Shown here: positions 15,450 through 23,148 of the stretch, one piece after another | Position numbering within the stretch: the first letter of the stretch is position 1 | Layout: every line of letters starts with the position of its first letter | Origin: Pseudomonadota bacterium | Lineage (GTDB): Bacteria; Pseudomonadota; Gammaproteobacteria; Steroidobacterales; Steroidobacteraceae | DNA: 37,225 bases | Direction of reading: 5' to 3' | NCBI GenBank assembly: GCA_025351005.1 | Contig: JANXWS010000032.1 | Location: forward strand, 1 to 37,225 | Notes under the pieces: model-generated | Told to the model about the DNA's origin: nothing | Seen by the model: the letters and a program-made list of their open reading frames with translations, nothing else | The model's database searches: none | Program-made: the position numbers and the translations under genes

Positions 15450-17120
15450 TCACGGCCGCCGCCACAGGCTGCCGCGGGCATCGGCCTGCGCCAGTGTCGC
15501 GCCGGGAAAGTACCCGACGACGAGGCGCGCGTCCGCCTCGGCCGACTCGCTCATCAGCGTGATGACGCGGTCGCGGCCCGGGAAATTCTGGATCGCGTCC
15601 CAGCTGTAGAGCCCCCGCTGCGCCGTCACGAATACCACCCACTGACCGTCGGCCGGCGCCGGCGGAATCTGTGCGAGATGCTCCTGCTGGATCGCCTGAG
15701 CCTGCCAGAAGCGCAAGCCGGTCGCGAGCACGAGGCTCGCGACCGCCATGCCGCCCGCCCAGTCTCGCCACGCCCGGTCGCCGGCGCTGTCCGAGCCATG
15801 GCGCGCGATCATCGCCGCGGCGAGCAGCGGCAATGCAGCCCAGGCCGAGTGCAGGTAACGGTAACCCCATCCGTGGCCCTGGTCGAGCGGCACGAACCAA
15901 TAGAGGACGTAGGTCAGCAGCGCGGAAGCTGCGAACAGTGCGAGCGGTCCGCGCGCGCCGCGCAGGCCGCCGAACGACAGCAGCAGCAGCCCCGGCACGT
16001 TCCAGAGCCAGAGCTTCCAGGTCCCGGTCAGCCTGGCGAGCACGGTCTGGTACTGCGGCCACTCGAATATGTTGCTCAAGCGAGCGACCAGCAGGCCCCG
16101 AATGGCAACCGGCTGTGCATGGCCGGTGGCGGGCTGGATGTGCGCGACGAACGCCGGCCAGCCGGCACCGACCAGCAGGCCGATCGGCAGGTAGCCCGCC
16201 AGCAACGCCGCCACGGCCGGCCAGCGGGCGCGCTTAAGCAGCAGCCAGACGATCCAGGGTGCCGCGAACAGCAGGTGCGGCACCGGGTTGTGCAGCACCA
16301 GTGCGAGACCACCGACCAGCCCGGCCGCGAAGGCGCGCGCCGGCCGCGGATCGAGCAGCAGCAGCGCATACAGCAGGTTGGCCGCGAGGTGCGCCGGCAT
16401 CGAGTAGAACGACATGCCGTTGACCGCGAACACCGGTGAGCCAAGCGTGAACAGCAGCGCCCAGCCGGCGGCCTCGCACGTGCCGATGATCCGGACCGCG
16501 AGCGCGTGCACCAGCAGCACCGACGCCGCCGCCAGCAGCGGGTTCAACAGCCACGGCACTCCGGCCCACGCGAACGGCGTCAGCAGCAGGGCGAACCCCG
16601 GCCAGTACATCGACGCCGTCTCACCGGTCAGCGGATCGAGGGCCAGGAAATACCCCCGGAACGGCACCGGGATCATCCGGTCGAGCAGCTCGGGCTGCAG
16701 GAACCACGACAGCCGGCCCTGCGCGAACGCGTAGGCCTGGGCGAGCGGCGCAGACTCGTCCATCGCGAGCGCATGCGCGTGGTAGACGAAGCGTGCGCCG
16801 ATCGCCAGCACCAGAAACGTGCCGAGTGCCGTCGCGCCCGGTCGCTCGCCCAGCCACCGCGCCAGCCGGCCGCCCGACCGCCGCAGCCCCGGGCTGCACC
16901 AGACGAGCGCCACGATCGCCACGGCGAGCGCCGCGCCCCAGTTGTCGTAGAACGCGAACAGCCGGTCGAACATCGGGTGCGCGAGGCGGTCGCGGTGCGG
17001 CCAGCGCGCGAACCAGGTGGCAAGCCATGCGGCGGCGCTGATGGCGAGCGTCGCGAGCGCAAACAGGCTCGCCGGCCGCAGGCGCCGCGCGCTCCAGCGC
17101 CGCTCAGCATCGGAGTTCAT
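15450..17120 (-). CDS. GT-C-like integral-membrane glycosyltransferase
   Basis: The product is 556 aa with about ten or more hydrophobic segments. After the first segment an external loop contains HALAMDESAPLAQAYAF, where the Asp-Glu pair is typical of the first loop of GT-C enzymes (ArnT, PMT, GtrC-like) that use polyprenyl-phosphate sugars. MYWPGFALLLTPFAWAG and LHNPVPHLLFAAPW are further membrane blocks. A soluble C-terminal part (about 490-556) begins near GQWVVFVTAQRGLYSWDA. Transfer of a sugar from undecaprenyl phosphate to a periplasmic acceptor is inferred; acceptor and sugar are unknown. It begins 12 nt after secA on the same strand and precedes gtrA, so the three may share a transcript. 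Confidence 0.72.
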   Translation of the reverse strand: MNSDAERRWSARRLRPASLFALATLAISAAAWLATWFARWPHRDRLAHPMFDRLFAFYDNWGAALAVAIVALVWCSPGLRRSGGRLARWLGERPGATALGTFLVLAIGARFVYHAHALAMDESAPLAQAYAFAQGRLSWFLQPELLDRMIPVPFRGYFLALDPLTGETASMYWPGFALLLTPFAWAGVPWLLNPLLAAASVLLVHALAVRIIGTCEAAGWALLFTLGSPVFAVNGMSFYSMPAHLAANLLYALLLLDPRPARAFAAGLVGGLALVLHNPVPHLLFAAPWIVWLLLKRARWPAVAALLAGYLPIGLLVGAGWPAFVAHIQPATGHAQPVAIRGLLVARLSNIFEWPQYQTVLARLTGTWKLWLWNVPGLLLLSFGGLRGARGPLALFAASALLTYVLYWFVPLDQGHGWGYRYLHSAWAALPLLAAAMIARHGSDSAGDRAWRDWAGGMAVASLVLATGLRFWQAQAIQQEHLAQIPPAPADGQWVVFVTAQRGLYSWDAIQNFPGRDRVITLMSESAEADARLVVGYFPGATLAQADARGSLWRRP

Positions 17121-17132
17121 CGCGGTCCCGTC

Positions 17133-20321
<3,189 letters not shown>

Positions 20322-20374: not shown

Positions 20375-20380
20375 ATTGTA
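20375..20380 (-). promoter_or_regulatory. candidate -10 for secA
   Basis: TACAAT on the minus strand lies 54 nt before the secA start codon, within the 152-nt gap after the M23 gene. The upstream -35 region is not convincing. A GCGCG/CGCGC inverted repeat lies in the leader between it and secA. No terminator with a T-run separates the M23 gene from secA, so read-through is also possible. Confidence 0.3.
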
Positions 20381-20473
20381 CTAAGGAGCGCCCGCCATTA
20401 CCCGTGGCCCGGGCAGGCGTGTCCGGGAGGCCGGGGGGTGCCGGCCGGCAGGCTGTCGGTGGGGGTCCGGCCG

Positions 20474-21427
20474 CTAGCGCGCAGCGGTGAGCGGCGGCGG
20501 CGCGTTCCTGGTGATAAACGCCATCGGGTCGACCGGGGTACCGTCGCGGAGCACTTCGAAATGAACGTGCGGGCCGGTGGAGTGCCCGGTACTGCCGATC
20601 AGCGCCAGCGCCTGCCCCTTCTGCACGGTGTCACCGGTCTTCACGAGCACCTTCGAATTGTGGGCATAGCGGGTCACGTAGCCGTTGCTGTGGTCGACCT
20701 CGACCAGGTTGCCGTAGCCGAAGCGCTCGCCCGCCCAGGTCACGATGCCGGTCGCCACCGACAGCACGTCACCGCCGGCCTCGCCCGCGAAGTCGACGCC
20801 CGAGTGAAAGGTCGTGTAGCCGGTGAAGGGGTCGACGCGCTCGCCGAAGAACGACGAGATGAAGCCGGACGACACCGGCCGGCCCTGCGGGTGGACGTCG
20901 CGACGCAGCTCGCGCGTCAGGATCAAGTTCTCGAGGGCACCCAGCTGCCGCTCCCGGTCCGCCAGCTGGCCGGACAGGCGGTCGAGCATGTCGGTCAGCA
21001 CCGGCATGCTGGCGGGGATCCCGGTCGCGGCCGAGACGCCGGTGCCGCCGACGGGCGGCGTGACCGAGAAATTGAACTCGCCCTTGGTCAGGCCGGCCAT
21101 CTCGGTGAGGCGCCGGCCGAGCGCGTCGAGGCGAATCACGTGGGCATTCATCTGGCCCACCCGCATCGCCAGCGCGTCGACGTTTTCCTGCAGCGAATGC
21201 CGCGCGGCCTCGACGTCCTGGCGCTGGTGGACCAGCTCCGCCGTCCACCGCTCGAGCTGGGCGCCCGGCTGAGCTTCCGCCCAATGGGCACCGAGCAGCG
21301 ACCCGGCCGCGAACACGCCGCCGAGCAGCAGCAGCAGCACCGACAGGGCCGCCGTCAGGAACAGCGGCGAGCGCAGATCGAACTGCCGCGCCCGGCCCTG
21401 CTGGCGGCTGAAGACGATGATGTTCAA
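20474..21427 (-). CDS. M23-family (LytM-type) metalloendopeptidase, membrane-anchored
   Basis: The product is 317 aa and is a probable peptidoglycan endopeptidase, or an EnvC/NlpD-like amidase activator. It starts at TTG 21427 (MNIIVFSRQQGRARQFDL), where GGAG lies about 10 nt upstream; upstream in-frame sequence looks non-coding. One transmembrane segment (about 21-44, LFLTAALSVLLLLLGGVFAA) is followed by a helical, probably coiled-coil stretch (RWTAELVHQRQDVEAARHSL to ADRERQLGALENLI). The M23 domain (about 195-300) has zinc ligands in HSGVDFAGEAGGDVL (HxxxD) and HVHFEVLRDG (HxH), with GYGNLVEVDHSNGYVTRYAH between. The zinc ligands are complete, so it is probably catalytic rather than a degenerate activator. 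Its leader of more than 250 nt carries a c-di-GMP riboswitch, so expression probably responds to this second messenger. Confidence 0.93.
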   Translation of the reverse strand: MNIIVFSRQQGRARQFDLRSPLFLTAALSVLLLLLGGVFAAGSLLGAHWAEAQPGAQLERWTAELVHQRQDVEAARHSLQENVDALAMRVGQMNAHVIRLDALGRRLTEMAGLTKGEFNFSVTPPVGGTGVSAATGIPASMPVLTDMLDRLSGQLADRERQLGALENLILTRELRRDVHPQGRPVSSGFISSFFGERVDPFTGYTTFHSGVDFAGEAGGDVLSVATGIVTWAGERFGYGNLVEVDHSNGYVTRYAHNSKVLVKTGDTVQKGQALALIGSTGHSTGPHVHFEVLRDGTPVDPMAFITRNAPPPLTAAR

Positions 21428-21663
21428 GCCCGTCGCTCCACGCCGACCTCGATCCGGCCCACAGGGGCTCCGACTGACCGGCCGCCCGTACGGTACGGCC
21501 TGCGATCCCAACGACTTTGTCGGGAATGGAATGCCGGGGGCCCGGCGCCGTCCGCGGCCGCTGCGCCCGCTGCAATTGTTACCAGCGCCACCGTGGGCAC
21601 CCACCCGTCGTCCGGGCGGTCCATCGCGCCGGTATTTTCATCCGGCACCCGTCCGCCTCTCGT

Positions 21664-21681
21664 ACAGACAGTCGTGTCTGT
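21664..21681 (-). other. hairpin just 3' of the riboswitch aptamer
   Basis: ACAGACA (21664-21670) and TGTCTGT (21675-21681) form a perfect 7-bp stem with a 4-nt loop, three nucleotides beyond the aptamer in the minus-strand transcript. No T-run follows on the minus strand, so it is not a simple terminator. It overlaps the first codons of a possible small ORF starting at ATG 21684. It is a good candidate for part of the expression platform. Confidence 0.5.
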
Positions 21682-21684
21682 CAT

Positions 21685-21768
21685 GACTGGCAACCCCGCT
21701 GTCCTAGCTCGCGCCTTAGACCGGTGGCTTTGCGTCCCCGCCTTTCGACGGGTTTGCCCTTGTGCAGC
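21685..21768 (-). ncRNA. cyclic di-GMP-I riboswitch (GEMM-I class)
   Basis: Read on the minus strand, this segment matches the GEMM-I aptamer block by block. GGGCAAACC is at 21759-21751. The GAAA tetraloop lies in GTCGAAAGGC, and GGACGCAAAGCC follows. ACCGGTCTAAGG carries the tetraloop receptor CTAA, and GCTAGGACAGCGGGGTTGCC forms the second hairpin. The Vibrio cholerae Vc2 aptamer has the same blocks in the same order and spacing. It binds c-di-GMP and switches expression of the downstream gene, here the M23 endopeptidase starting about 257 nt later on the same strand. Whether it turns expression on or off cannot be read directly. Confidence 0.94.
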
Positions 21769-21775
21769 GCTTGGG

Positions 21776-21805
21776 ACTATGCAACAAAAACCCCCGACCG
21801 AACAA
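21776..21805 (-). promoter_or_regulatory. candidate promoter of the riboswitch-M23 transcript
   Basis: On the minus strand TTGTTC (21805-21800) and CATAGT (21781-21776) are separated by 18 nt. Transcription would start about 7 nt later, just before the aptamer. The -35 is only half consensus, but the position fits the 5' end expected for a riboswitch transcript. Confidence 0.4.
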
Positions 21806-21846: not shown

Positions 21847-22149
21847 ATGAGAAAACCAATTTCGGTCAGCGAGTTACTGGCCCAAGGCCGGTCGAAGCTC
21901 AAGCGCCTGCAAGAGGGCGCCGATACCGCCGGACGGACTCTTGCTGCACTGCAGCGCGCACTTCCGGCCGACCAGGCCGGGCACGTCTTCGGGGCGTCAG
22001 TCGACGAGGGGGGCGTGCTCACGGTGGTGGTCGACAGCGGTGCGTGCGCGACCAGGCTTCGTTACACGGTGCCGGAGGTCGTCGCGGCGCTGTCGGGCGA
22101 ACTTGGCGTCGTCATCACCCGCACGGTCGTACGGGTGCGCTCCCGCTAG
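21847..22149 (+). CDS. dciA: DciA-family protein (DUF721), putative replicative helicase loader
   Basis: The product is 100 aa. DUF721/DciA proteins interact with the replicative helicase DnaB and help to load it in bacteria lacking DnaC. The sequence has a basic N-terminal helix ([18 protein letters not shown]), a second helix ([20 protein letters not shown]) and the family strand-helix block [20 protein letters not shown], ending in a basic beta-strand ([11 protein letters not shown]). ATG 21847 was chosen because the family begins here and the upstream open frame runs antisense to the riboswitch. It sits between lpxC and the M23-secA genes, as known for Pseudomonas. Its stop codon overlaps the lpxC stop (CTAG) in convergent orientation. 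Confidence 0.82.
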
Positions 22150-23060
22150 TGCCCGACGGCGGCCGCCGGGACATAGGAGATAGGCGCCTCGGCGCGGTCC
22201 CGGAAGGTCACCTCCTCCCAGGCCGATACGTCCGCTATCAGCGCCCGCAGCAGCCGGTTGTTGAGCGCGTGGCCCGATTTGTAGCCGCTGAACTCGCCGA
22301 TAAGGCTGTGGCCGAGCAGGTACAGGTCGCCGATGGCGTCCAGGATCTTGTGCTTGACGAACTCATCCTCGTACCGCAAGCCATCCTCGTTCAGCACCTT
22401 GAAGTCGTCGAGCACGATCGCATTGTCGAGCGTGCCGCCGAGGGCGAGATTCCGGGCGCGCAGCGTTTCCAGATCGCGCATGAAGCCGAACGTGCGTGCG
22501 CGGCTCACTTCACGCAGGAACGACGTCGTCGAGAAATCCATCGACGCGCGCTGCGAGTGGCGGCGAAAGATCGGGTGGTCGAACTCGATCTCGAAGTTGA
22601 CCTTGAAGCCGTTGAACGGATTGAAACGCGCCCATTTGTCGCCGTCGCGGACTTCAACCGGCTTGCGGATGCGGACGAACCGCTTCGCCACGTTCTGTTC
22701 CTCGATGCCCGCCGACTGCAGCAGGAACACGAACGGTGCGGCGCTGCCGTCCATGATCGGCACCTCGCCGGCGCTGACCTCGACGAAGGCGTTGTCGACG
22801 CCGAGCCCGGCGAACGCGGACAGCAGGTGCTCGACCGTCGACACCTTGACGTCACCGTTGACGAGCGTCGTGCCGAGCTGGGTGTCGCCGACATGCTCGG
22901 CGCGGGCCTCGATGTCGACCGGTTCGGGGAGGTCGACGCGGCGAAAGACGATGCCGGTGTTCGGGGCCGCCGGACGCAGCGTCATGTACACCTTCTGTCC
23001 GGAGTGCAGGCCGACGCCGGTCGCGCGGATCGTGTTCTTCAGGGTGCGCTGGTTCAGCAT
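22146..23060 (-). CDS. lpxC: UDP-3-O-acyl-N-acetylglucosamine deacetylase
   Basis: Zinc amidase for the committed step of lipid A synthesis. The product is 304 aa from ATG 23060 ([20 protein letters not shown]), against 305 in E. coli. Zinc ligands are His78 in [12 protein letters not shown], plus His237 and Asp241 in [14 protein letters not shown]. Catalytic Glu77 and His264 ([13 protein letters not shown]) are present, and [14 protein letters not shown] and [17 protein letters not shown] are conserved blocks. The frame is open 20 codons further upstream, but that part runs across a terminator-like hairpin and is non-coding. The gene follows ftsZ, as in the standard dcw order. No strong ribosome site precedes the ATG. 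The C terminus is short, which may matter for FtsH-type degradation. Confidence 0.97.
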
Positions 23061-23081
23061 TCGGTTATCGGCCGCAGTAAC

Positions 23082-23105
23082 GAAAAAGGCGGAGGCGAGC
23101 CTCCG
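23082..23105 (-). terminator. intrinsic terminator / attenuator in front of lpxC
   Basis: On the minus strand CGGAGG-CTCG-CCTCCG is followed by CCTTTTTCG, a compact stem with a 4-nt loop (up to 7 bp if the loop shrinks) and a T-run. It ends only about 22 nt before the lpxC ATG. It could end the dcw transcript after ftsZ, or act as an attenuator in the lpxC leader, because no room remains for a complete promoter between it and lpxC. Confidence 0.68.
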
Positions 23106-23118
23106 GCAGGGTCGGCGC

Positions 23119-23148
23119 ACCCTAGCACAGGCCGCAAAATCGCCACAA
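23119..23148 (-). promoter_or_regulatory. candidate lpxC promoter with extended -10
   Basis: On the minus strand TTGTGG (23148-23143) lies 18 nt from TAGGGT (23124-23119), which is preceded by TGC, giving an extended -10 pattern. Transcription would begin near 23112, directly before the terminator hairpin at 23082-23105. Confidence 0.4.

Follow-up and report, generated by a model that had tools for sequence, protein, structure and literature searches.

A c-di-GMP-I riboswitch aptamer and a putative coupled leader ORF upstream of an M23 peptidase gene between lpxC and secA

Genes and RNA elements between lpxC and secA

The window, that is, the whole stretch of 37,225 nucleotides analysed, belongs to a 2.7-Mb draft genome (86% complete) of an uncultured gammaproteobacterium. 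Its sole Rfam match at gathering level is a c-di-GMP-I (GEMM-I) riboswitch aptamer, downstream of which lie a gene for an M23 peptidase (PF01551) and then secA. The features of the locus are as follows.

22146..23120, minus strand: lpxC (PF03331), the neighbour on the upstream side, overlapping the 3' end of dciA
21847..22149, plus strand: dciA (PF05258), divergent neighbour, ends taken from the list of ORFs
21776..21805, minus strand: predicted promoter, TTGTTC and CATAGT 18 nt apart (motif TTG-N18..22-GCATA(G/T)T)
21686..21768, minus strand: c-di-GMP-I (GEMM-I) riboswitch aptamer (RF01051, 80.9 bits)
21424..21684, minus strand: leader ORF of 86 codons, from ATG at 21684 to TGA at 21426-21424, the stop overlapping the M23 start (TTGA)
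21664..21681, minus strand: 7-bp hairpin right after the leader start codon (codons 2-7), from sequence and fold
20474..21427, minus strand: M23 (LytM-type) peptidase gene, 317 aa, with a hydrophobic N-terminal segment (PF01551, 114.6 bits, scanned on a longer ORF from 21604)
20375..20381, minus strand: GTACAAT, probably the -10 element of secA's own promoter (motif in 58 of 94 loci)
17133..20321, minus strand: secA, 1062 aa; only read-through could carry the riboswitch transcript into it

Further upstream, past lpxC, are genes for FtsZ, FtsA, FtsQ, D-Ala ligase, MurB and a Mur ligase. Of the GT-C and gtrA genes that the earlier note names after secA, the analysis covered one ORF (15450-17120), which had no Pfam match. 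An earlier note on this DNA had placed the M23 gene between lpxC and secA with dcw genes near, and the Pfam scans agree with the neighbours it described. In E. coli, the lpxC-secA interval is occupied by secM. Since dciA is divergent, lying on the plus strand and pointing away from the aptamer, the aptamer would open its own transcript rather than sit inside the lpxC message.

The aptamer was found by cmscan over the whole window (21768 to 21686, E 1.4e-14, model positions 1-87 of 87), and its score lies above the RF01051 gathering cut-off of 35 bits. The earlier note had called a full GEMM-I aptamer on the minus strand and proposed this covariance search; its coordinates were right to within one base, and the match is full length. 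Our own model R1, built from 25 GEMM-I sequences that include loci of the M23 gene, scores the window aptamer at 95.3 bits, the window having been in its training set. The blocks GGCAAAC, CGCAAAG and GCC agree with the consensus and place G, A and C at the ligand-contact positions, which we take to correspond to G20, A47 and C92 in Vc2 numbering. RF01051 has no other match in the draft genome and none in 14 control genomes. By its covariance score the riboswitch is genuine, and it presumably binds c-di-GMP.

The promoter motif recurs in relatives. Here f1 denotes the window's own family, and f7 and f15 two other families of the same order; the labels are arbitrary. Within the 60 nt on the 5' side of the aptamer, 39 of 41 f1, 18 of 24 f15 and 30 of 30 f7 loci carry the motif, where mononucleotide shuffles give expectations of 0.01, 0.02 and 0.04, respectively. 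It usually ends 2-7 nt 5' of the aptamer and therefore points to an RNA start at the aptamer's 5' edge. The transcript very likely begins at the aptamer, near 21770, so that the aptamer heads the M23 message; to this extent the earlier note's interpretation is supported. Of the f1 loci that have no aptamer, 55 extend 150 nt or more upstream, and in 33 of these the motif stands before M23 too. A generic promoter scan found no promoter before the aptamer. A terminator-like hairpin at 21819-21794 was taken as chance: shuffles would yield 0.9 such sites where this single one was found, its position coincides in part with that of the promoter, and its stem, judged by eye, is not kept in relatives. 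A sigma-54 promoter, considered by eye, was also rejected because its GG spacing is not kept in relatives.

The M23 gene starts at TTG 21427, 258 nt past the aptamer. Its orthologues share this start (MN...), nearly always as ATG, and a ribosome-binding site of its own, GGAG, can be read at 21439-21436. Residues H208, D212, H256 and H289 are invariant in seven aligned M23 proteins, and the window protein has both the HxxxD and the HxH motif, whose residues presumably serve in zinc binding and catalysis. Its best solved relative is TagE (5j1l, E 3.9e-24, covering residues 180-308 only). The product is likely a periplasmic wall-cutting peptidase.

The first His of HxH is kept in the four f1 proteins and the one Rheinheimera protein aligned. 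It is replaced by Asn in one f7 protein (L241, GPNLHFEV) and one f15 protein (L211, GSNLHFEV), so enzyme activity may differ there.

Distribution of the aptamer-M23 pairing

Among 100 genomes of the window's own family, 87 have an M23 relative, and 87 loci from 86 genomes were searched (G318 is absent and G323 has two loci). By R1, a strong aptamer precedes the orthologous M23 gene in 28 of these loci, and two more have a degenerate one (30.2 and 23.6 bits). The 59 loci lacking a strong aptamer include four that are cut within 150 nt upstream. Among 14 loci beyond these 87, from the window's own genus and genus g3, 11 have the aptamer. Taking all loci together, it is present in 8 of 11 loci of the window's own genus with upstream DNA, being absent in G102, G130 and G267, and in all 13 of g3. 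In the two other families, for which the 30 loci most similar to the query were taken each, a clear aptamer occurs in 24 of 30 (f15, M23 matches in 38 of 40 genomes) and 30 of 30 (f7, M23 matches in 69 of 81). Named contigs contribute 8 aptamers among 46 with an M23 relative; all eight are metagenome-assembled, and some are of the same species as other loci. In all 38 loci tabulated (30 from f1 and these 8, some of the same species), the aptamer lies on the M23 strand. The Rheinheimera records with an M23 relative yielded no aptamer.

Outside the order, where 125 genomes have an M23 match, the aptamer was found in none of 69 loci from other orders of the class (best E-value 0.39), all with at least 350 nt of upstream DNA. 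These loci have lpxC in 65 of 69 cases; for 29 of them the downstream side was covered too, and 28 of those have secA. The lpxC-M23-secA order without an aptamer there means that the gene order is wider than the aptamer. Within the order, lpxC and secA both flank the gene in 74 of 87 f1, 25 of 30 f15 and 20 of 30 f7 stretches, a count that includes stretches truncated at the end of a contig. The survey of related genomes that the earlier note had suggested thus finds the aptamer kept before M23 in several families, and by sequence comparison at least three families of the order preserve the pairing.

Degenerate aptamer remnants stand behind a conserved promoter in L155, L171, L146, L157 and L160, two recognised by model score and three by eye. 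Such remnants in several aptamer-less f1 loci suggest repeated loss, and the aptamer seems to have been lost repeatedly in this family. In some loci of genera g4, g5 and g12 of f1, the aptamer lies only 27-54 nt from M23, a distance at which it may act on the gene directly.

Other GEMM-I aptamers of the order precede, as judged by eye from translations, genes for surface-like or lipoprotein-like, SPOR-like and PilM-like proteins. M23 genes were also recognised by eye after such aptamers in f15 (L008, L016, L029), f7 (L024) and another family, f2 (L107). Tandem GEMM-I aptamers about 200-250 nt apart occur in other families (L002, L003, L010, L013, L014, L020, L095), several of them before lipoprotein-like genes.

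The presence of the aptamer follows the number of c-di-GMP enzymes as a loose trend only. The median number of GGDEF matches is 20 in the 28 f1 genomes with a strong M23 aptamer versus 15 in 54 uncut genomes without one (p 0.0014, uncorrected for relatedness or genome size). The aptamer is found at M23 in none of the 13 f1 genomes with at most 10 GGDEF matches and uncut upstream DNA. In one f1 genus, g7 (G073, G187 and G203; 94-100% complete), neither GGDEF at E 1e-10 nor RF01051 was detected, and this genus may have dropped c-di-GMP signalling.

The neighbouring SecA protein has a PDZ-like insert of ~107 residues (about 253-359) in its preprotein cross-linking region. Against PF13180 the insert scores 26.9 bits for the stretch alone, where the cut-off is 27, and 22.8 bits in the whole protein. 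Its occurrence is patchy: 22 loci, some of them duplicates, match in g1, g5, g12, g18 and named MAGs, and most others have 0-9 residues there. No paper on a PDZ-like insert in SecA was found by title in the open-licence literature.

The leader ORF and the mode of control

The earlier note overlooked the leader ORF at 21684-21424, which is a candidate route for action across the 258 nt between aptamer and gene. It begins immediately 3' of the aptamer, and its stop codon shares bases with the start of M23, an architecture of the ppe2 type. It is found in 7 of the 8 aptamer loci of the window's own genus, the window included, with ATG and once GTG as start codon. In seven of the eight genomes the aptamer-M23 spacers are 258, 264, 264, 264, 270, 270 and 270 nt, all multiples of three because the ORF, which starts one base past the model end, closes with a TGA that shares bases with the M23 start. 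In the eighth locus, L204 (G209), neither the leader ATG nor the frame survives, while the aptamer (61.4 bits) and the hairpin are retained. A short GAC...GTC hairpin, varying in register and sequence, was read by eye in the eight aligned loci. The folding energy of the whole leader is unremarkable (z -1.0).

The leader feature recurs elsewhere in the order. In f7, a start codon lies at -1 to +4 of the aptamer end in 30 of 30 loci, and the ORF ends at +4 (28 loci) or +1 (2 loci) of the M23 start, where 0.66 is expected, a value that, like the others given here, treats related genomes as independent and is a guide only. The f7 leader frame has no stop in 1131 codons, versus 44 and 69 in the other frames. 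In f15, such a start is present in 10 of 24 loci (6.1 expected), and nine ORFs end at +1 or +4 (0.76 expected). In f1, of 32 leaders 20 end at +4, against 6.3 expected, and 26 close somewhere from -35 to +4, against 9.6 expected; this set takes in loci with a start codon and 90 nt or more between aptamer and M23, TTG inside the aptamer being accepted where there was no other, and leaves out 8 of 40 loci. One locus, L145, was excluded from the count beforehand because of its uncertain M23 start. Most of these M23 genes begin with ATGA, so that a frame staying open in that register inevitably closes at +4; because the M23 start was left intact in the shuffles, the expected values allow for this.

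An ORF starting at the aptamer edge is also present in the g14 locus, both g16 loci and all 13 g3 loci. The g3 leaders close at +4 in seven loci, at -4 in one and at -19 in two; the remaining three stop 39-93 nt before M23, so that 5 of 13 fall 19-93 nt short of the gene. In the fourth family, f2, L107 has a leader ORF of 25 codons before M23 that ends at +4. Among 44 GEMM-I aptamers of the order that do not precede M23, a start codon lies at -1 to +4 in nine, and seven are open there for at least 25 codons; in the same control set, such a start occurs in 3 of 9 M23 loci, most of which are from f15. The leader feature is thus strongest in f7, the window's own genus and g3, and by these comparisons it is not a property of the aptamer class.

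The leader does not look like an ordinary conserved small protein, a reading that was rejected: there is no coding-type G+C periodicity (0.74/0.67/0.69 in the window), and the window's ORF has no Pfam match. Since this composition is lacking and the peptide is poorly conserved, the argument for the leader depends on where the frame ends and on its staying open. An open frame is only indirect evidence of translation.

In the mechanism that we favour, the conserved 3' G-tract of the aptamer, GCGGGG, 9 nt before the leader ATG, would serve as the ribosome-binding site of the leader. Binding of c-di-GMP would lock the aptamer and hold the G-tract in base pairs, so that the leader is not translated. 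At low c-di-GMP, ribosomes would translate the leader, terminate at the TGA overlapping the M23 start, restart there and keep the M23 site open. High c-di-GMP would then lower production of the periplasmic wall peptidase. We consider such an OFF switch, in which c-di-GMP hides the leader ribosome site and M23 translation follows by coupling, to be reasonably probable. The aptamer, its promoter, its pairing with M23 and the leader ORF are read from sequence and comparison among genomes; ligand binding, the role of the G-tract, the coupling and the OFF direction are what we infer from them.

Some features bear on how strong such a switch could be. Mean anti-Shine-Dalgarno duplex energies of the leader site are -5.5 (f7), -6.3 (own genus) and -6.1 kcal/mol (g3). 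In the window's own genus, the M23 ribosome site has a similar strength (-5.7 versus -6.3 kcal/mol), so coupling need not be obligatory. Predicted ensembles place most of the G-tract in base pairs (unpaired 0.11-0.19), in favour of the model, but they do so even when no ligand is bound, which may limit how clear-cut the switching amplitude is. A wider proposal is that the leader ORF acts as a relay with two inputs, second messenger and translation state, that the G-tract of the aptamer doubles as ribosome site, and that the arrangement is an ancient platform of one order. We regard this extension as doubtful, if worth keeping in mind.

The opposite direction, an ON switch in which the ligand exposes the leader or M23 site and c-di-GMP raises the peptidase, appears unlikely. 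Both directions are known for this aptamer type, Cd1 being OFF and the cGAMP-sensing pilM switch ON (excerpts of PMC9262584). Reduced c-di-GMP leads to less Vc1-dependent expression (excerpts of PMC4744006), and an Erwinia endopeptidase of the MepM/ShyB type contributes to c-di-GMP-dependent aggregation (excerpts of PMC7705223). The 3' strand of P1 in the window can also pair downstream instead, with a probability of 0.51, but this alternative was examined in that single sequence. The sole plausible leader ribosome site, moreover, lies inside the aptamer, which favours OFF.

A riboswitch without a functional leader is rather improbable. It would act through transcription, for example by Rho-dependent termination in the spacer, or through message stability, and the open frame would be a by-product. 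The non-coding composition of the leader fits this, as does L204 with its aptamer and hairpin but no leader ORF, and no intrinsic terminator was found in the long aptamer-M23 spacer. However, the stop-free f7 frame and the 30 of 30 f7 leader ends that overlap the M23 start are hard to explain without translation.

It is very unlikely that the riboswitch mainly controls secA by read-through, as a form of secretion control at the place of E. coli secM. The gene order is conserved, and no terminator-like site was found in the M23-secA interval, so read-through is possible. However, 58 of 94 loci have GTACAAT within the 170 nt ahead of secA, 33-97 nt from the gene, where mononucleotide shuffles would give 0.32; the share is 35 of 37 among aptamer-bearing loci and 23 of 57 among the others. 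This conserved promoter motif makes a strong dependence of secA on the riboswitch unlikely. The earlier note was right that no clear terminator follows M23; its suggestion that secA and the genes beyond could be affected finds no support in that form.

That the aptamer has decayed here and lost its response is also very unlikely. The draft has no second RF01051 match, five genomes of the same genus having four and five none, and relatives have degenerate copies, but the full-length match of 80.9 bits has an intact core and the genome has 14 GGDEF matches.

Comparison with known systems

The M23/LytM peptidases of the TagE and MepM/ShyA type share the domain and the zinc-site residues with the window protein. 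In the open-licence literature, the titles and abstract starts among the matches listed contained neither an aptamer-M23 pairing nor a c-di-GMP riboswitch with a coupled leader ORF; supplementary target tables may hold such a case.

The family c-di-GMP-I-GGC (RF03167) belongs to the same clan as RF01051 and is the match kept in 5 of 8 named relatives, RF01051 being kept for the window. As a label for a separate ligand class in some relatives it was rejected as not useful because RF03167 and RF01051 each match 235 of 296 genomes of the order and their aligned cores are alike. GEMM-Ib riboswitches of the cGAMP type carry A in place of G20; the window differs from these in having G at this position.

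The nearest parallel to the leader is the B12 riboswitch of Mycobacterium tuberculosis ppe2, which controls an out-of-frame leader ORF, uPPE2, whose UGA overlaps the ppe2 AUG, with termination-reinitiation between them (excerpts of PMC11260477). In both cases a short leader ORF whose stop overlaps the start of the next gene would be under riboswitch control. The ligand, the RNA class, the target and the bacterium are different, and what was established by experiment for ppe2 is deduced from sequence here. In addition, ppe2 is described as having no obvious ribosome site (excerpts of PMC11260477), whereas M23 in the window has GGAG. With this site before M23 and a duplex energy similar to that of the leader, the window is not filed as an exact member of the ppe2 type.

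By covariance model, the aptamer belongs to the same class as Vc1 (before gbpA) and Vc2 (before VC1722) of Vibrio cholerae and Cd1. The ligand-contact residues of Vc2 are G20, A47 and C92 (excerpts of PMC4744006). Vc2 is a translational OFF switch (excerpts of PMC9262584), its mechanism having earlier been given as unknown (excerpts of PMC4744006). What sets the locus apart from those GEMM-I switches is its target, the M23 peptidase gene located between lpxC and secA, together with the leader ORF that follows the aptamer and overlaps M23. With this locus, the likely direct RNA targets of c-di-GMP come to include a cell-wall peptidase encoded next to division and secretion genes, and its leader ORF offers a testable route by which a c-di-GMP aptamer could act on a gene more than 250 nt away.
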